From Myxococcaceae bacterium (lineage in GTDB: Bacteria; Myxococcota; Myxococcia; Myxococcales; Myxococcaceae), in assembly GCA_017881265.1 (NCBI GenBank), contig JADGRA010000014.1, forward strand, positions 124,001-188,000: a stretch of 64,000 nt of DNA, in the 5' to 3' direction. Positions 1 to 9,352 of the stretch are shown here, piece by piece; the first letter of the stretch is position 1, and every line of letters starts with the position of its first letter. The translations under genes and the position numbers were made by a program. The notes beneath the pieces are model-generated. The model saw nothing but the letters and a program-made list of their open reading frames with translations, had not been told where the DNA came from and ran no database searches.

Positions 1-1727
1 GCCTCCAGGCCGCTGAAGCCCCGCAGCAGAATCGCCACGTCCCCGCCCCGGGCGCGGCGCAGCCGGCCGGTGTCCACCACCGTCTCGGGCCCCTCCGGCG
101 AGAGGAGGAAGGCCAGCCAGCGTGCCAGGACGTCCGCCTCCGCCTCGCGGCCGGTGCCGCGGGCGGCGGCCACCACCGGCAGAGCGTCCACGCACGCCTC
201 GGGTCCCACCTGGGGGCGCACCGGCAAAAGGGCGTCCTCCTCCGGGCGAAACACCACTTCATAATCCCTTGGGGCGGCGACGGCGGGCAGCGCCGCAGCG
301 GCGGCCGCGTTGAGGACGCGCAGCAGCGCCGGGGCCGAGCGCCGGTTGTCCCGGAGGAAGTGCCGGGCGCCCCCCTCCGCCACCACCTTCTCCGCCAGCC
401 TCTCGAAGGTGGAGACGTCGGCGCCGCGGAAGTCGTAGATGGACTGTTTTCTGTCTCCCACGGCGAAGAGGAAGCGCGGCTCGAGCGGCAGGGCAAGCAC
501 GGCGTCGTGGCCGCTGCCGACCGGCCGCGGGCCGCCGTCGCGCGCCTCGGACAGCAGCACTACCAGCTCCAGCTGCAGCCCGTTGGTGTCCTGCACCTCA
601 TCCACCAGCAGGGCGCCGGCGCGGGCCTGGGCGCTGGCCCGGAAGCCCAAACGGTCGCGCAGCACGTCCCGCGCCGCCACCAGCAACTCCGCGAAGTCCA
701 TCCACCCGCCCCGGCGCAGCGCCGCCCGGAAGTCCGCCTCCACCTGGCCGCACAGCCGGCGCAGGGTGGCCTCGTGCCTGACGGCGGTGCAGCCGGCGTA
801 GGCCGAGACGACGCCGGGAAGCTGCAGGGTGCCGTCCAGCAGGGCTTCGCGGACCGCCGCCAGGGCGTCCCGCAGGCCATTCTTCCCGGTGCGCGGAAGG
901 GCACCGGCCAGGGCCTCGAGGCGCGCCAGCCGCTCGGGCGGGGCCTGCCCGTCCAGTCCCTGCAGCACGTCGAGGCAGGCTTCCAGCGTGCTGGCCACTT
1001 CGTCGGAAGCAGCGGCCGCCTCCGGAAGCGCCGCCTGAAGCCGCGCCTCGGCGCTGGCCACCGCCGCACGCAGCTGCTCGGCAGCCTGTCCCGCCTCTCC
1101 CACGGCCACCTCCGCCGCGCCCTGCCCCTCCTCCCGCAGCCGCACCACCGCCGCGACGAGGAAGTCCAACAGGCCGCTGCCCCGCCCGGTACCGCGCAGC
1201 TCCGCCTGGCCGCACAGAGCCTCCACGTCGGCGTCCCCGGTGTCGAGGGCGTCCAGCACGGCCTGCTCGGCCGTGTCCCCCAGCAGTTCCAGGGCATCCT
1301 CCTCACCCAGCAATTCAAAGCCCTGGGGAATGCCGCTGGCGGCGGGCGCCTGCCGCAGCAGCCGCGCGCAGTAGGCGTGGAAGGTGGACAGGGTGGCCAT
1401 GTCCAGCTGCGACTGGACGGCGCGCCAGAAGGTGGGCGCCGGTGGCGGACGGCCCGCGGCGGCGAAGGCTGCCTCCAATTCCGGTTCGCTGCCCCGCCCC
1501 TCGGCCAGCGCCTCCACGCGGACGCGAAGCCGCTCCCGCATTTCGGCGGCCGCCTTCTCGGTGAAGGTGAGGAGGCACAGGCGCGCCGGGGCGAGGGCCT
1601 CGCGGCTGCCCGCGCCCGCAAGCAGCCCGAGGGCCGTCGTCAAAAGCCCGTGCGTCTTGCCCGCCCCGGCCCCGGCGAAGAGGCAGCTGTTGCGGGCCAG
1701 CACGTCACCCAGGGGCAGCTGGCTCAC
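1..1727 (-). CDS. UvrD-family (AddA-like) helicase/nuclease, N-terminal part; runs off the window
   Basis: Superfamily 1A DNA helicase of the UvrD/RecB/AddA type, expected to unwind duplex DNA at double-strand breaks together with the upstream AddB-like protein. About 575 residues are visible. The Walker A motif AGAGAGKT is at residues 18-25, TFTEKAAAEM (motif Ia region) near 55-64, the Walker B/motif II stretch LVDEVQDTNG near 373 and motif III GDRKQSIYDFRGAD near 421. The GTG start at 1725-1727 overlaps the stop of the upstream gene (GTGA), so the two are translationally coupled. A C-terminal nuclease domain, as in AddA or RecB, would lie outside the window and cannot be judged. The low end of the window truncates the gene; it is not broken in the visible part. 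A plain UvrD-type helicase is less likely because of the coupled AddB-like partner. Confidence 0.9.
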   Translation of the reverse strand, partial: MSQLPLGDVLARNSCLFAGAGAGKTHGLLTTALGLLAGAGSREALAPARLCLLTFTEKAAAEMRERLRVRVEALAEGRGSEPELEAAFAAAGRPPPAPTFWRAVQSQLDMATLSTFHAYCARLLRQAPAASGIPQGFELLGEEDALELLGDTAEQAVLDALDTGDADVEALCGQAELRGTGRGSGLLDFLVAAVVRLREEGQGAAEVAVGEAGQAAEQLRAAVASAEARLQAALPEAAAASDEVASTLEACLDVLQGLDGQAPPERLARLEALAGALPRTGKNGLRDALAAVREALLDGTLQLPGVVSAYAGCTAVRHEATLRRLCGQVEADFRAALRRGGWMDFAELLVAARDVLRDRLGFRASAQARAGALLVDEVQDTNGLQLELVVLLSEARDGGPRPVGSGHDAVLALPLEPRFLFAVGDRKQSIYDFRGADVSTFERLAEKVVAEGGARHFLRDNRRSAPALLRVLNAAAAAALPAVAAPRDYEVVFRPEEDALLPVRPQVGPEACVDALPVVAAARGTGREAEADVLARWLAFLLSPEGPETVVDTGRLRRARGGDVAILLRGFSGLE

Positions 1728-4700
1728 CGGCCGCCCTCCTTGCGCCGGGCGCCAATGCGGCACACGGCCCCGTAGGGACAAAACCCGCAGTCCATTGGGC
1801 GCGCGCCGAAGTCCCCGGCGCGGGAGCGTCCCACCAGCTGGTGCACGGCGTTGGCCAGGTTGGCCAGGCCCTCGGCGCGGGCCTGGGCGCGGGTTTGCGC
1901 GTCCATGGCCAGAAGGACGCCCTGTCCGGAGGGCGCGTCGAAGGGCTGAAACTCCCCGGACTTGAGGACGAGCCAGCCGGCGCGCAAGGGCCGGCCCTCC
2001 CCGCGCGCCCGTACCGCCCACAGGTAGAAGGGCAGCTGGAAGTCCGTGGTGAGTAGGTCGCGCGCCGCGTCCCGCCGACGGCTGGCCTTGTAGTCCAGCA
2101 CCCCCACCCCGCCGGGGCCTGCGTCCAGCCGGTCCACCGTGCCGGTGAGGCAGACGTCCGCCTCCCCCGGCAGCGCCGCTTCCAGCCGCACCTCGCGCCA
2201 GTCCTGCTGGGCACTGGCCCGGCCGAAGGTGGTTTCCACGTCCTGCGGCAACAGCCCCTCGAAGGGCACCCCGTGGTGCGGGGCATCCAGCACCCGTCGC
2301 ACCATCCACCGCGCGCGTTCACGCGCCAGGAAGAAGAGGCGGGGGTGGCCGGGGCTGAAGCGCCTGGCGAGGCCAGCGGCCCCCTCCTCCAAAGCCGTCT
2401 CCACCAGGGCCGCCGGCACGTCGCGGAAGGGATGGCCCAACAGGCCCGCGGACAGTAGCTGCGGTACCAGGCTCTCCAGCACCGCGTGCCAGAAGCTGCC
2501 CTGGCCGCGGGCGTCCAGCGCCTCGCCCGGCGCCTCCGGCGGCTCCAGCCGCAGGGCGGTGTAGGCGAAGCCCTGAAAGGCGCACCGGCCGAATTTCCCC
2601 AGCGTGCTGGCAGACAGCGGGGCGTCTGGGCCGTAAGCGTAGGCCTTTGCCCGCGCCTCGGCGAGGTCAGCTTCCGTCACTGCGCCGCTGAAGCGGCCAC
2701 TGGGCAGCTCGGGCGCCTCGAAGGCGCGCACGCGCTCGGCCTCCATGGCGCCCAGCGCACGCGCCTCCTTCAGCCACCCCTCCTCGCTGTGGTGGACCAG
2801 CGCCCGCGCCAACCCGTCGGCCGAGTCCACCCAGGCCACCGCCTCGCGGAGCTCGCCTTCCGAGGCGGCGCGCACCAGGGGCACCACCGCCGCGTCGGGC
2901 ACGTCCACGCGCGGCACCCCGGCGCTGCGGGCGAAGGCGTCGAGGAAGCCGGACGGGCCGGTGACGTCCTGAAAGCCGTCGTCGCGCGCGAAACCCAGCG
3001 CGGCGGCACCCGCCCGCCCCACTGTCACCCCCAGGCGCCAGCCATCCAGCGCCAGCGCCGCCGGGGGCCGGACGTCGGCCGAGCCATACCGCAGGGGGAA
3101 GGCGTCGCGCCCCAGCGCGCGGTTGACGCGGTGCCTGTCCTCGTCCGTCAGCGCCCCGGCGCGCTGCAGGGGCCGCGGGAAGCGGCCCTCGGCCAGCGCC
3201 ACCGCGCCCACCCAGGCCAAGGGGCCCTCCTCCACCGCTTCCTCGTAGAGGAGGACGGCCACCCCGCCCGGGTGTCCCCTCTCCTCCGGCAGCCGGTGGC
3301 TGGCGGCGGCCTGGGCGAGGAAGGCGGAAAAGCCTGCGCGCTGCAATCGAGGCCCGGGCGTGCCGAGGGCCGACAGCGCCCCCCGCGCTTCGCGCAGGAG
3401 GGCGCGCCACGCCTCTCGGGCCTGCACCGCGCGGCCAAGGGCCCGCGCCGCGGCCTCCGCGCCGGGGCCGACGGACAGGCCCGCCTCCGCCGGCGCCTCC
3501 CAGAAGCCCAAGGCGGCCAGGGCGCGCTGCCAGGCTTCCAGGTGGGCGGACAGCGTCGCGTCGGCTGGCAGTGCCCGCACCAGGGAGAAGAAGGCCTCAC
3601 AGGCCTCCAGCAGCCGCTGCGCCTCCGGGCGCCTGTCCGCGCGGCCTCCGCGCTGTGCCAGAGCCTCCAGCCGCACCCGGTACGCCCCCTGGCCACCACT
3701 GCCGCCCAGCGCCTCGTCCCGGACGCCGGCCCGTTCCAGCAGCGCTGCTGCCCCGCGCGGCGCCTCCGGCCAAAGGCCCGGAAGAAGGCCACTGTGCAGC
3801 AGCCACGCCACGTCCTCCCGAGGGAAGGCCGCCTCCTCCAGCCGCGCCACCAGCACGCCGGCGCGGCCGGCGGCGGTGCTGCCCAGCGTCCGGCGTGGGC
3901 AGCGGCCGACGGACAGCCCGGCGGCGCGCAGCGCCGCGGCGACGGCGTCGGCACTGGCAGCGTCCGGCACCAGCACCGCGCACCGGGCGGGCGAGGCGCC
4001 GGCCTGCACCGCGGCACGCGCCTGGGCCGCCACCAGCTGTGCCGCGGCGGAGGCGCGGGCCGCGCTGAAGACGGCTGCCGGCGCGGCCTGGGCGGCCGGC
4101 CGGCCGAGGAATTCCACCGCCCGGGATAGCGGCGCGCCGTCGGGCGGCAACACCCGCTCCAGCACCAGGGGCGACAATTCCGGGTGCGCCTCGACGGCCG
4201 CAAAAATGGGCTCCAGCGCCGCGTCCAGGCTGGCCTCCCCGGTGGCCGGCACCTGCAGCACCACCGGGCGGCCCTGGCGTTCCGCCAGCTGGGCGAGGGC
4301 CACCAGCGCCTGCAGCACCACCGGCGGCAAGGGCGGGTGCAGCCGGACGTGCAGCTGCCGGAAGCCCTCCAGCGCTCGGGGCCAGCCGTCTGCCGAGGCG
4401 AGGGCGGCGCGGGCGTCGTCCCAGCGTCCGGCCGCGTCGGCCAGCCCCCGGGCGTGCAAGAGGCGCTGGTAGCCACCAAGGGCGCTGGCCACCGCCAGCA
4501 GCCGTTCCGCGGGCGGGCCCCCCAGCCGCTCCGCAACGGCCAGCAGCGCCTGGGCACGGACGCGCCCCGCCCGGGCTTCCTGGACGGCCTCCGCCAGCCC
4601 CGACAGACGTTCCACGTCCGCGGCGTCCAGCACCTTTCCGTGCGCGTCTGCAACCGCCAGCGCCAGCCAGCTGCCGAGGCCGTCCAGCGTCCGGCGGGCC

Positions 4701-4822
4701 AGGCCGCCGCCTGCGGCAAGCAACTGGGCCAGGGCCTCCAGCGGCAGGACGGCGGCGGGCGCGCCAGGGCCAGGCCCGGGCGCCGGGCCCACCCACAACA
4801 CGTTTGCGTCCACGTCCGGCAT
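1724..4822 (-). CDS. AddB-like PD-(D/E)XK nuclease with an iron-sulfur cluster motif
   Basis: A 1032-residue protein resembling the AddB/RexB subunit of AddAB double-strand-break repair nucleases. The N-terminal two thirds is a degenerate helicase-like region in which I see no Walker A motif, so it is probably not an ATPase. The C-terminal nuclease domain has a conserved His in GSFWHAVLE, then GTVDRLDAG and LDYKAS (D910 and K912), the usual PD-(D/E)XK residues. Cys747 (in GKFGRC) plus C1012-x2-C1015-x5-C1021 reproduce the four-cysteine iron-sulfur staple around the AddB nuclease domain. The helicase-like partner follows with a 4-base overlap. The gene is read from ATG at 4820-4822. B. subtilis AddB keeps an intact Walker A, so loss here suggests a structural or sequence-scanning role, as proposed for other degenerate AddB/RexB subunits. 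Confidence 0.88.
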   Translation of the reverse strand: MPDVDANVLWVGPAPGPGPGAPAAVLPLEALAQLLAAGGGLARRTLDGLGSWLALAVADAHGKVLDAADVERLSGLAEAVQEARAGRVRAQALLAVAERLGGPPAERLLAVASALGGYQRLLHARGLADAAGRWDDARAALASADGWPRALEGFRQLHVRLHPPLPPVVLQALVALAQLAERQGRPVVLQVPATGEASLDAALEPIFAAVEAHPELSPLVLERVLPPDGAPLSRAVEFLGRPAAQAAPAAVFSAARASAAAQLVAAQARAAVQAGASPARCAVLVPDAASADAVAAALRAAGLSVGRCPRRTLGSTAAGRAGVLVARLEEAAFPREDVAWLLHSGLLPGLWPEAPRGAAALLERAGVRDEALGGSGGQGAYRVRLEALAQRGGRADRRPEAQRLLEACEAFFSLVRALPADATLSAHLEAWQRALAALGFWEAPAEAGLSVGPGAEAAARALGRAVQAREAWRALLREARGALSALGTPGPRLQRAGFSAFLAQAAASHRLPEERGHPGGVAVLLYEEAVEEGPLAWVGAVALAEGRFPRPLQRAGALTDEDRHRVNRALGRDAFPLRYGSADVRPPAALALDGWRLGVTVGRAGAAALGFARDDGFQDVTGPSGFLDAFARSAGVPRVDVPDAAVVPLVRAASEGELREAVAWVDSADGLARALVHHSEEGWLKEARALGAMEAERVRAFEAPELPSGRFSGAVTEADLAEARAKAYAYGPDAPLSASTLGKFGRCAFQGFAYTALRLEPPEAPGEALDARGQGSFWHAVLESLVPQLLSAGLLGHPFRDVPAALVETALEEGAAGLARRFSPGHPRLFFLARERARWMVRRVLDAPHHGVPFEGLLPQDVETTFGRASAQQDWREVRLEAALPGEADVCLTGTVDRLDAGPGGVGVLDYKASRRRDAARDLLTTDFQLPFYLWAVRARGEGRPLRAGWLVLKSGEFQPFDAPSGQGVLLAMDAQTRAQARAEGLANLANAVHQLVGRSRAGDFGARPMDCGFCPYGAVCRIGARRKEGGR

Positions 4823-5529: not shown

Positions 5530-6390
5530 TCAGCCCACGGCGGGCGTGTGCCGCGCCCCCCACACCTCGCCGCGCCTCCACGCCACGCGTCCGCTTGTCC
5601 CCCAGCCGGCCTCCAGTGCCTCGGCCCCCCCCTGCCACTCCATCCAAAACACCGCGCCGTCGCTGCCCCTGGCCTCGTCGAGGCATGCGACGCGTGTCTG
5701 CGTCCCGTCCGGGTGGGAGAGGCTGGCCGCCAGCGCCTCGTGCGAATGCCCGCACCACAGCCACCCTGGCCGCAGCGTCTGCACCAGGTCCCGGGTGAAG
5801 GGGTTGCCCATCCACGGGCGGACGGGGCGGCCAGCCACGCGCTGGAAGAGGCCGCGGGGCCACTCGTGCACCAGAAGCAGCTGCAGGCCCCGGGCCCCGC
5901 GCAGCCGTTCCACCTCGGCGGTGCGGAAGTAGCCGGCCTGCTTCTGGGTGGCCGCCGTGCGGGGCTCCCGCAGCGGCGTGTCCACGTGTCTGGGGGCGTA
6001 GATGCCCGACAGCCAGCCCACCTTGAGGCCGTCGAAGGCGCGCGTCCCCACCCGACCCAGGTAGTGCAGCCCGGGGGCCACCTCCCCGCCCTCGGGCAGC
6101 GCGTACAGGGCCTCGAAATCCTCGTTGTTGCCGCCGATGAAGTGCATCGGCCGGTACAGCGTTCGGGCGCCGCCGGCGTATTCGGCAAATTCCGCCGGCA
6201 TGGCGCGTTTGGTGGACTTGCGCCGGTCGTCGTCGGGGTTGCGGAAGGCCTCCAAGTCGCCCACGGCGAAGACGACGTCCAGGGCTCGTCCGCGCGACTC
6301 CTCGAGTTCGCGCAGCCAGCCCTGCACCCGGTGAAAGCGGCCGTGGATGTCTCCGACACCGGCGATGAACAGGGGACCCCTCCCGAGCAC
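5530..6390 (-). CDS. Metallophosphoesterase related to RNA lariat debranching enzyme (Dbr1-like)
   Basis: A 286-residue calcineurin-fold phosphoesterase. The metal-ligand motifs are in order: GDIHG (D14, H16), GDLE (D45), GGNNE (N88), HEWPRG (H175) and GHSH (H215, H217). Around them the sequence follows eukaryotic Dbr1 unusually closely: GDLEAFRN against GDFQAVRN, APGLHYLGRVG against APNIYYLGYAG, LSGIY against ISGIF, and HEWPRGL against HDWPRSI, with the same spacing of about 44 residues between the last two. Differences: the first motif has the standard Asp where eukaryotic Dbr1 has Cys, the catalytic His of GNHE is Asn (N89), and the Dbr1 C-terminal domain is missing. Dbr1 cleaves 2',5'-phosphodiester branches; whether this protein does so is inference. 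It is divergent from uvrA with 109 bases between them. A generic phosphodiesterase is the alternative. Confidence 0.85.
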   Translation of the reverse strand: MLGRGPLFIAGVGDIHGRFHRVQGWLRELEESRGRALDVVFAVGDLEAFRNPDDDRRKSTKRAMPAEFAEYAGGARTLYRPMHFIGGNNEDFEALYALPEGGEVAPGLHYLGRVGTRAFDGLKVGWLSGIYAPRHVDTPLREPRTAATQKQAGYFRTAEVERLRGARGLQLLLVHEWPRGLFQRVAGRPVRPWMGNPFTRDLVQTLRPGWLWCGHSHEALAASLSHPDGTQTRVACLDEARGSDGAVFWMEWQGGAEALEAGWGTSGRVAWRRGEVWGARHTPAVG

Positions 6391-6499: not shown

Positions 6500-9352
6500 A
6501 TGGCTGAACCTGACTTCATCGCCATCCGTGGCGCGAGCGAGCACAACCTCAAGTCCGTCTCCCTCGACGTCCCGAAGAAGAAGCTCGTCGTCTTCAGCGG
6601 CGTGAGCGGCTCGGGGAAGAGTTCCCTCGCCTTCGACACGCTGTACGCCGAGGGCCAGCGACGCTACGTGGAGAGCCTCTCCGCCTACGCGCGGCAGTTC
6701 CTCGGGCAGCTGGAGAAGCCCAAGTACGAGACGCTGCGCGGGCTGTCCCCCACCATCTCCATCGAACAGAAGTCCGCCAGCAACAACCCGCGCTCCACGG
6801 TGGGCACGGTGACGGAGGTGCACGACTACCTCCGGGTGCTGTACGCCTCCATCGGCGTGCAGCACTGCTGGAACTGCGGTCGCCGCGTGGGCCGGCAGTC
6901 CGCGCAGGCCATTGTCGACGAAGTGCTGAAGGCCCCGGCCGGCACGCGGCTCATGCTGCTGGCGCCCCTGGTGCAGAACCGCAAGGGGGAGCACCGCGAG
7001 GTCCTCGCGGATGCCGCGCGCCGGGGCTTCTCCCGGGTGCGCATCGACGGCAAGGTGCACGCCCTCGAGGAGCGCCTGGACCTGGACAAGAAGGCCAAGC
7101 ACACCATCGAGGTGGTGGTCGACCGCCTGGTGCTGAAGCCCGACGTCCGCTCGCGCCTCACCGACTCGGTGGAGACGGCGCTGCGGGAGGGCAAGGGCGT
7201 CCTGCTGTTGACCGACGAGACCGGGGGCGAGGAGCGCGTCATGTCCGAGCTCAACGCCTGCCACCACTGCGGCCTGTCCTTCCCGGAATTGACGCCAGCC
7301 TCCTTCAGCTTCAACAGCCCCTTGGGCATGTGCCCGGACTGCAACGGCCTCGGCACCCGGCCGGAGATGGACCCGGACCTCATCATCCCGGACCCGCGCC
7401 GCACCATCCGCGAAGGGGCGGTGGAGCCGTGGGCCACCGGCATGGGCAAGGGGGAGGGCTGGACGGCGGAGTTGGTAGAGCAGCTGGCGCGGGCCTTCAA
7501 GCTGGACCTGGACACCCCTTGGGAGAAGCTGAGCAAGCGCGAGCGGGACATCGTCCTGCATGGCTCGGCCGGCAAGTCCTTCAGCGTCCGCGGCTGGAAG
7601 ATGGAATGGGACGGAATCCTCCACAAGCTGATGAAGGGCTTCCGCACCACCCACAGCGAGGGGATGCGGAAGTACTACCTGAAATTCTTCTCGCCCAAGG
7701 CCTGCTCCACCTGCCACGGGGAGCGGCTGCGGCCGGAGGCGCGGGCGGTGCGGGTGCACGGCCAGACCATCGTTGAGCTGTCGCGCAAGACGGTGGCCGA
7801 GGCCCGGGGCTTCCTCTCCGGGATGCAGCTGCTTCCCCAGGAAGAACCGGTGGCGCGCGAGCTGCTTCGGGAAATCCAGAGCCGTCTCGGGTTTCTGGTG
7901 GACGTCGGCCTGGGCTACCTGACGCTGGAGCGGAGCGCGACGACGCTGTCCGGCGGGGAGAGCCAGCGCATCCGGCTCGCCTCGCAGATGGGAAGCGAGT
8001 TGACCGGCGTCATCTACATCCTGGACGAGCCGTCCATCGGGCTGCACCAGCGCGACAACGGCAAGCTGCTCTCGACGCTGAAGCGGCTGCGCGACCTCGG
8101 CAACTCCGTCATCGTCGTGGAGCACGACGAGGAGACGATGCGCGAGGCGGACCACATCGTCGACTTCGGCCCGGGCGCAGGCGAGCTGGGGGGCCAGGTG
8201 GTAGCCCAGGGCACGCCGGAGCAAGTCATGGCCAGCCCGGCAAGCCTCACCGGTGCCTACCTGAGTGGCCGGGCCCGCATCGACGTGCCGGCGCGCCGCC
8301 GGCCTCCGGGCCCCTCCCGGCTGGTGGTGGAGGGGGCGCGGGCCAACAACCTGCAGGACGTCACGGTGGAGTTTCCCTTGGGACTGCTGGTGGCCGTCAC
8401 CGGCGTGTCCGGGGCGGGCAAGTCCACCCTGGTCAATGAAGTGCTGTACCCCGCCCTCGCCCAGAAGCTGAACGGCGCGCGCGAGGTGGCCGGCCGGCAC
8501 CGGGCGCTGCGGGGGGTGGAGCTTCTGGACAAGGTGGTGGACATCGACCAGCGGCCCATCGGCCGCACCCCACGCAGCAACCCGGCCACCTACACCAAGG
8601 TCTTCGACGCCATCCGCAATGTCTTCGCCCTCACCCAGGAGGCCCGCACCTTCGGGTATGGCCCGGGGCGCTTCAGCTTCAACATGAAGGGCGGCCGCTG
8701 CGAGGCGTGCGAGGGCGACGGGGTGAAACTGGTGGAGATGCACTTCCTGGCCGACGTCTACGTCCCGTGCGAAGTGTGCGGGGGTAAGCGCTTCAACGAG
8801 GCCACGCTGCGCGTGCGCTTCAAGGGGAAGAACATCGCCGAGGTCCTGCAGATGAGCGTGCGCGAGGCGCGCGAGCTGTTCAGTGCCCACCGGGAGATTG
8901 AGCGCATTCTCGGGACGCTGGAGGACGTGGGCCTCGGCTACGTGCGGCTGGGTCAGAGCTCCCCCACCCTCTCCGGGGGGGAGGCGCAGCGGATTAAGCT
9001 CAGCCGGGAGCTGGCCCGGGTGGCCACCGGGCGCACCATCTACATCCTGGATGAACCCACCACCGGGCTGCACTTCGAGGACATCCGCAAGCTGCTGCGC
9101 GTGCTGGACCGGCTGGTGGAGGCCGGCAACACGGTGGTGGTCATCGAACACAACCTGGACGTCATCAAGAGCGCGGACTACCTGATTGACTTGGGGCCCG
9201 AGGGCGGCGCCGGGGGTGGCCGGGTGCTGGCCACCGGGACGCCGGAGGCGGTGGCGGCGGTCCCGGAGAGCTTCACCGGCCAGTACCTGGCCCGGGTGCT
9301 GGGGACACCCTCGCCGACGCGCTCGCGCTCCTCCGCGCGCGCCACCGCCTGA
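6500..9352 (+). CDS. uvrA: UvrABC excinuclease subunit A
   Basis: Damage-sensing ATPase of nucleotide excision repair; it loads UvrB at lesions. The 950 residues fit the family (E. coli 940). Two ABC ATPase modules are clear: Walker A SGVSGSGKSS near residue 33 with signature TTLSGGESQRI and ILDEPSIGLHQRD, and a second Walker A GVSGAGKST with TLSGGEAQRIKLS and ILDEPTTGLHF. Zinc-binding CxxC pairs are present (CHHCGLSF, CPDCNG, CSTCHGERL, CEACEGDG, CEVCGGKRFN). The ATG at 6500 is preferred over an open frame 20 codons further upstream because the conserved N-terminus (DFIAIRGASEHNLK) begins right after it. A perfect 12-base palindrome, CCGGACGTCCGG, sits at 6461-6472, 27 bases before the start; no recognised LexA box is visible. 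hxpB follows after 17 bases and may be co-transcribed. Confidence 0.98.
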   Translation: MAEPDFIAIRGASEHNLKSVSLDVPKKKLVVFSGVSGSGKSSLAFDTLYAEGQRRYVESLSAYARQFLGQLEKPKYETLRGLSPTISIEQKSASNNPRSTVGTVTEVHDYLRVLYASIGVQHCWNCGRRVGRQSAQAIVDEVLKAPAGTRLMLLAPLVQNRKGEHREVLADAARRGFSRVRIDGKVHALEERLDLDKKAKHTIEVVVDRLVLKPDVRSRLTDSVETALREGKGVLLLTDETGGEERVMSELNACHHCGLSFPELTPASFSFNSPLGMCPDCNGLGTRPEMDPDLIIPDPRRTIREGAVEPWATGMGKGEGWTAELVEQLARAFKLDLDTPWEKLSKRERDIVLHGSAGKSFSVRGWKMEWDGILHKLMKGFRTTHSEGMRKYYLKFFSPKACSTCHGERLRPEARAVRVHGQTIVELSRKTVAEARGFLSGMQLLPQEEPVARELLREIQSRLGFLVDVGLGYLTLERSATTLSGGESQRIRLASQMGSELTGVIYILDEPSIGLHQRDNGKLLSTLKRLRDLGNSVIVVEHDEETMREADHIVDFGPGAGELGGQVVAQGTPEQVMASPASLTGAYLSGRARIDVPARRRPPGPSRLVVEGARANNLQDVTVEFPLGLLVAVTGVSGAGKSTLVNEVLYPALAQKLNGAREVAGRHRALRGVELLDKVVDIDQRPIGRTPRSNPATYTKVFDAIRNVFALTQEARTFGYGPGRFSFNMKGGRCEACEGDGVKLVEMHFLADVYVPCEVCGGKRFNEATLRVRFKGKNIAEVLQMSVREARELFSAHREIERILGTLEDVGLGYVRLGQSSPTLSGGEAQRIKLSRELARVATGRTIYILDEPTTGLHFEDIRKLLRVLDRLVEAGNTVVVIEHNLDVIKSADYLIDLGPEGGAGGGRVLATGTPEAVAAVPESFTGQYLARVLGTPSPTRSRSSARATA

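Follow-up and report, generated by a model that had tools for sequence, protein, structure and literature searches.

Our analysis of a 64,000-nucleotide stretch of Myxococcaceae DNA (contig JADGRA010000014.1; hereafter the window) revealed that a protein encoded beside uvrA is, as judged from its sequence and predicted structure, homologous to eukaryotic Dbr1, the RNA lariat debranching enzyme, specifically and far above chance, i.e., beyond the general kinship shared by metallophosphoesterases (MPEs). In the aligned sequences of the group to which this protein belongs (clade A), the catalytic His and the adenine-clamping Tyr of Dbr1 are replaced throughout, with the set of metal ligands intact. 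Clade A is most likely a vertically inherited, Myxococcota-specific paralogue within a wider bacterial family of Dbr1-like MPEs. Our preferred reading, held with middling confidence, is that it has been repurposed as a two-metal phosphodiesterase, slow or otherwise specific, with a core housekeeping role, and is not a debranchase of lariats or msDNA. In one published account, Dbr1 alone among known enzymes opens the 2',5' branches of lariats, and its recognition loop has no counterpart elsewhere (PMC10470207); no description of bacterial Dbr1-like enzymes was found in the literature that we searched. A bacterial family closer to Dbr1 than to other solved phosphoesterases would supply tractable proteins for tracing the origin of the enzyme, and would let branch removal from msDNA, group II lariats, and other 2',5' bonds be tested.

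Table 1. Coordinates in the window of the clade A gene, its salient residues and segments, and neighboring genes.
Feature	Coordinates	Strand	Basis
Clade A Dbr1-like metallophosphoesterase CDS, 286 aa	5530..6390	-	sequence matches, alignment, profile, model
Metal-site residues D14, H16, D45, N88, H175, H215, H217, all kept	within 5530..6390	-	
Altered positions N89 (= Dbr1 His91) and R62 (= Dbr1 Tyr64)	within 5530..6390	-	
Stretch aligned to the Dbr1 lariat-recognition loop (EhDbr1 130-158), residues 128-175 (SGIYAPRHVDTPLREPRTAATQKQAGYFRTAEVERL...H)	5866..6009	-	
C-terminal tail, about residues 252-286 plus stop codon, distinct from the Dbr1 C-terminal domain and bearing the clade A-specific pattern GWGxSGxVxWxxGxxW	5530..5637	-	
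uvrA, divergent neighbor, 949 aa from ATG at 6503	6503..9352	+	
AddB/RecB-like protein with C-terminal PD-(D/E)XK nuclease; 6 further loci have a homologue close to their clade A gene	1724..4822	-	

The open reading frame begins with GTG, and its position, strand, and length match the initial annotation. By its motif series (D-x-H / GD / GN / H / GHxH), in which the ligands are invariant, the product is a calcineurin-like MPE, and it carries the sequences GDLEAFRN (residues 44-51), GNNE (87-90), LHYLGRVG (108-115), LSGIY (127-131), and HEWPRGL (175-181). Pfam assigned it the general Metallophos domain alone (PF00149, 1.6e-8, above the cut-off), and there was no match in an NCBIfam search of the protein or in an Rfam search of the window. 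When the protein alone was compared by phmmer with all PDB chains, the significant matches were five sequences of Entamoeba Dbr1 (EhDbr1; best E = 1.4e-15, over residues 9-218), followed by CWF19L1 (best 2.8e-4), a component of the intron-lariat spliceosome, and nothing else. Searching the PDB with a profile of 21 relatives gave 2.1e-39 for Dbr1 and 1.3e-14 for CWF19L1, with no other match below 0.09. A structure predicted from 67 relatives (mean pLDDT 93.3, pTM 0.93) pointed the same way: Foldseek placed Dbr1 chains at ranks 1-9 (2.4e-18 to 4.5e-17, TMq 0.74-0.78, rmsd 4.1-4.6 Å) and CWF19L1 at ranks 10-11 (3.7e-16), with LpxH next at 6e-8. We rejected a generic, misannotated MPE, because no generic MPE occurred among the sequence matches (E <= 10) and the fold matches to such enzymes were ten orders weaker than those to Dbr1. 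The initial annotation had called the protein a bacterial Dbr1 homologue from motifs recurring in the Dbr1 order, and had proposed a profile search and a structure prediction as checks. Both the homology and the motif order hold: EhDbr1 aligns in order, Dbr1 rather than unrelated phosphodiesterases comes top by sequence, profile, and fold, and the predicted fold lies nearest to Dbr1 (Foldseek E about 2e-18) with ordinary MPEs ten orders of magnitude behind. It had likewise read correctly the replacement of the GNHE His by Asn (N89) and of the first-motif Cys by Asp (D14), as well as the divergent orientation relative to uvrA, the likely ATG of which (6503) lies 113 bp away.

We then compared the active sites, using the EhDbr1 numbering of a previous study (PMC4176325) and taking the EhDbr1 letters from our own alignments. 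His16, Asp45, Asn90, His180, His230, and His232 are kept in every aligned bacterial sequence. All 67 bacterial sequences have Asp at the position of Cys14, described as invariant in Dbr1 (PMC4176325). His91, the proposed proton donor to the leaving 2'-O in EhDbr1 (PMC4176325), is Asn (N89) in all 20 clade A sequences and His in all 47 other bacterial relatives. Tyr64, the residue stacked against the branchpoint adenine in EhDbr1 (PMC4176325), gives way to Arg (R62) in each of the 20 clade A sequences and is kept in 30/34 sequences of a second clade (clade B) and 8/8 of a further one (clade D). The lariat-recognition loop of EhDbr1 spans residues 130-158 (PMC4176325), and the number of residues between SGI and H(D/E)WP is 47 in clade A, 49 in clade B, and 50 in Dbr1 (also 43 in clade C). 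In clade A, this stretch carries an invariant K..GYFR, specific to the clade, that includes K150; Arg156 is also invariant there and lies one or two columns off EhDbr1 Arg158, in a region where the alignment is ambiguous. In the predicted model, the protein ends at residue 286 in a beta-rich tail, as opposed to the helical C-terminal domain of EhDbr1 (residues 262-354), and the Pfam search of the protein found no match to the Dbr1 C-terminal domain (PF05011). The same domain gave no match in the whole genome, in a search that had no positive control and is thus uninformative. EhDbr1 loses its function in vivo upon removal of the C-terminal domain, the loop, or Cys14 (PMC4176325), and the further, disordered C-terminus of human Dbr1 is dispensable (PMC10470207). 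Although built on the Dbr1 plan, clade A departs from it in four defining features that we tested, and classifying it as Dbr1 would be inappropriate.

The target has a match in 76/195 genomes of Myxococcota. Clade A is confined to this phylum, being present in 70 of the 96 genomes of the window's family, Myxococcaceae, and in a single genome from a sister family of the same order (G155; 50% identity). It is monophyletic (support 100/99) on a long stem. The dN/dS ratios between related clade A pairs (0.13-0.39) indicate that the gene is maintained, and a recent pseudogene was rejected, since the frame is open and under purifying selection. In the sister-family genome, a clade A-type domain with HDWPRG and GNNE forms the C-terminal end of a 1115-aa open frame (L037), which is probably overlong, in high-GC DNA; the co-occurrence of HDWPRG with GNNE suggests that the His-to-Asn change is older than the family split. 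Separately, a record titled 'Comamonas sp. KCTC 72670' in the GTDB collection (L058, L112) holds Myxococcus-like clade A and B genes, and its title looks mislabelled.

In 14/14 same-family genomes in which both genes lie on one contig, clade A is divergent from uvrA, at distances of 66 bp to 4.6 kb. The AddB/RecB-like PD-(D/E)XK gene of the window recurs near clade A and uvrA (L046, L050, L109, L112, L113, and L116), which suggests an old repair-gene neighborhood. The arrangement agrees with vertical inheritance in a constant position, and the linkage to uvrA may reflect that inheritance rather than function; for a functional link to repair, it is only a hint. Many larger genomes also have, between the clade A gene and uvrA, a roughly 1000-aa protein with Ig repeats of the HYDIN/ASH/Cep192 type (e.g., L047:5947-9189 and L109:732-3677); it adjoins the clade A gene in the majority of large Myxococcaceae. 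Domains of this type are best known from cilia and centrosomes.

The initial annotation had further proposed msDNA and intron lariats as possible substrates for debranching by the protein. An active debranchase of such 2',5' linkages would agree with the homology and the Dbr1-first structural ranking, with a stretch of Dbr1 length at the position of the loop, and with the prevalence of retrons in the family (71/96 genomes) and a group II intron RT/maturase in the window's own genome. However, that enzyme is the only reverse transcriptase (RT) of the genome, which is 95.7% complete and gave no match to a retron RT; the query was a 485-aa Myxococcus RT, presumably of the Mx162 type, whose NCBIfam retron matches fell just short of the 235-bit curated cut-off, at 216 bits. 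Across the 96 genomes, 8 carriers of clade A have no retrons, 4 have no RT at all (G060, G091, G140, and G141), and 9 retron-bearing genomes lack the gene. Raw counts do associate clade A with retrons (62/70 versus 9/26, p = 4e-7), an association that we attribute to shared descent. On the UvrA tree, clade A forms nearly one clade (3 changes), and within 5 independent retron-differing pairs it was unchanged in 4.4 on average, contrasts so few that, while giving no evidence of coupling, they do not prove its absence. Thus, once phylogeny is considered, the survey of genomes with and without retrons does not tie clade A presence to retrons. Group II introns fared no better: we found no association of their maturases with clade A (22/70 versus 5/26, p = 0.31), nor of group II introns with clade B (p = 1.0). 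We therefore rejected both a retron accessory gene, given the lack of a retron match in the own genome, the retron-free carriers, the retron-bearing genomes without the gene, and the absence of independent coupling, and a group II intron partner. Also speaking against debranching are the invariant changes at His91 and Tyr64, the Asp in place of Cys14, and the missing C-terminal domain, of which the last two concern features whose loss abolished EhDbr1 function in vivo. The suggestion of msDNA or lariat debranching is thus not supported, and for clade A it is the least favored reading, one that we consider very unlikely.

Under our preferred reading of clade A as a repurposed phosphodiesterase, the fold would be built around a canonical two-metal site in which Asp14 replaces Cys14 of Dbr1, and a nucleic-acid or nucleotide phosphodiester would be bound in the Dbr1-like groove. 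There, N89 could still contact a phosphate but could not protonate the leaving group, and R62, instead of stacking on the branchpoint adenine, would interact with either a phosphate or a polar group; from these two properties we infer a slow or differently specific phosphodiesterase and not a lariat or msDNA debranchase. The bound phosphodiester would probably still be hydrolysed, slowly or with another specificity, in nucleic-acid housekeeping. A caveat to this reading is that the loss of the general acid need not end activity. Both the housekeeping role and the substrate are deduced solely from conservation and gene position. The chief rival, which we regard as somewhat unlikely, is a catalytically reduced binder akin to CWF19L1/Drn1 that would hold a partner or a nucleic acid, branched or structured, and hydrolyse it inefficiently if at all. 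Such a binder would be consistent with the invariant loss of the catalytic His, with the place of CWF19L1 next after Dbr1 by structure and as the sole further significant PDB match by sequence, and with a conserved loop and C-terminal tail specific to clade A; the invariant loop residues (K150, GYFR) would fit a binding role too. Yet the metal ligands are all invariant in clade A, which would be unusual where metal chemistry is gone, and no partner is known. That clade A reuses the Dbr1-like groove as a phosphodiesterase acting on a nucleotide signal or on another small 2',5'- or 3',5'-linked molecule (e.g., cyclic or linear oligonucleotides) seems very unlikely to us. The MPE superfamily does contain cyclic-nucleotide phosphodiesterases, a recent study validated a metallophosphatase akin to cGAMP-PDE in phage defence (PMC13092281), and the clade A gene is a solo gene with no fixed partner beyond the uvrA neighborhood, but clade A loci have no conserved cyclase or CBASS-type neighbors, a PADLOC search of the target gave no match, and the vertical, core-genome distribution differs from that of defence genes. 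A defence-island gene was rejected on the same PADLOC result.

A second bacterial clade, sister to clade A and overlooked in the initial annotation, keeps His91 and mostly Tyr64 and also occurs in myxobacteria. This clade B accounts for a second gene, sharing about 36% identity with the target, in about 30 genomes of the family. Across 84,980 species scanned, it was scattered over Cyanobacteria, Acidobacteriota, Planctomycetota, Chloroflexota, Pseudomonadota, Thermodesulfobacteriota, and Myxococcota, and the related clade D turned up in Actinomycetota; clade C, which comprises remoter relatives bearing HDAPAG, is found in other Myxococcota. In clade B, His91 is present in 34/34 sequences and Tyr64 in the 30 of 34 noted above. 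By single sequence, clade B matches Dbr1 at 4.2e-29, i.e., nearer than clade A, and the structure predicted for the protein from Aliterella (pLDDT 94.6) matches it by Foldseek at 4e-23 (TMq 0.82, rmsd 2.6 Å, 28% identity). In the tree, EhDbr1, a single sequence on a very long branch, falls inside clade B (97/55), and an AU test did not reject its grouping with clade A (p = 0.61). No conserved operon partner emerged, as among the 84 nearest neighbors of diverse clade B loci no family occurred in more than 2 members, and PADLOC returned only a weak match to the candidate model PDC-S10 (3.8e-9). Among loci L051-L096 and others, the clade B genes of Hydrocoleum (L064) and Microcoleaceae (L094) appear to be disrupted. 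The viral contigs searched yielded one distant relative only, a GNHE-type protein on a 133-kb IMG/VR contig (L131) that is about 29% identical to clade B; in BFVD, some phage MPEs bear the label 'RNA lariat debranching enzyme'.

On these sequences and models, clade B is a better candidate debranchase than clade A, and its proteins, with the catalytic His always kept and the clamp Tyr mostly so, are the more exciting bacterial candidates for debranching. A broader reading, which we consider unlikely, is that bacteria possess a true Dbr1 family, in which clade B would be a 2',5'-phosphodiesterase and either a close relative or the source of the eukaryotic enzyme, and clade A a derivative that exchanged debranching for a new housekeeping function on nucleic acids. 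The two clades offer a natural experiment in which a single fold either has or lacks the catalytic His and the adenine-gripping Tyr; some cells contain both versions.

Compared with known systems, LpxH, Rv0805, GpdQ, and the purple acid phosphatases have the superfamily fold and metal motif in common with the target, but their fold matches are 6e-8 or weaker and none matches by sequence at E <= 10. CWF19L1/Drn1, a Dbr1 relative that puts the MPE core to another use, is the second-best PDB match by both sequence (profile) and fold; unlike it, clade A has the complete metal-ligand set, and CWF19-type C-terminal domains are absent from the Pfam matches of the target. With EhDbr1 (PDB 4peh, 5k77, and 5uki), the target shares the MPE core, all six metal ligands listed above, the SGI and H(D/E)WPxG motifs, and a stretch of similar length at the position of the loop, and differs from it in the three substitutions (Cys14 to Asp, His91 to Asn, and Tyr64 to Arg), in the absence of the C-terminal domain, and in overall length (286 versus 354 aa). 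Finally, clade B (e.g., L038 of Myxococcaceae, L068 of Aliterella, and L072 of Sulfidibacter) is 26-37% identical to clade A and has the GGN(H/N)E, YLGR, SGI, and H(D/E)WP motifs in common with it; in contrast to clade A, it retains His91 and mostly Tyr64, matches Dbr1 better, and is distributed patchily across many phyla.
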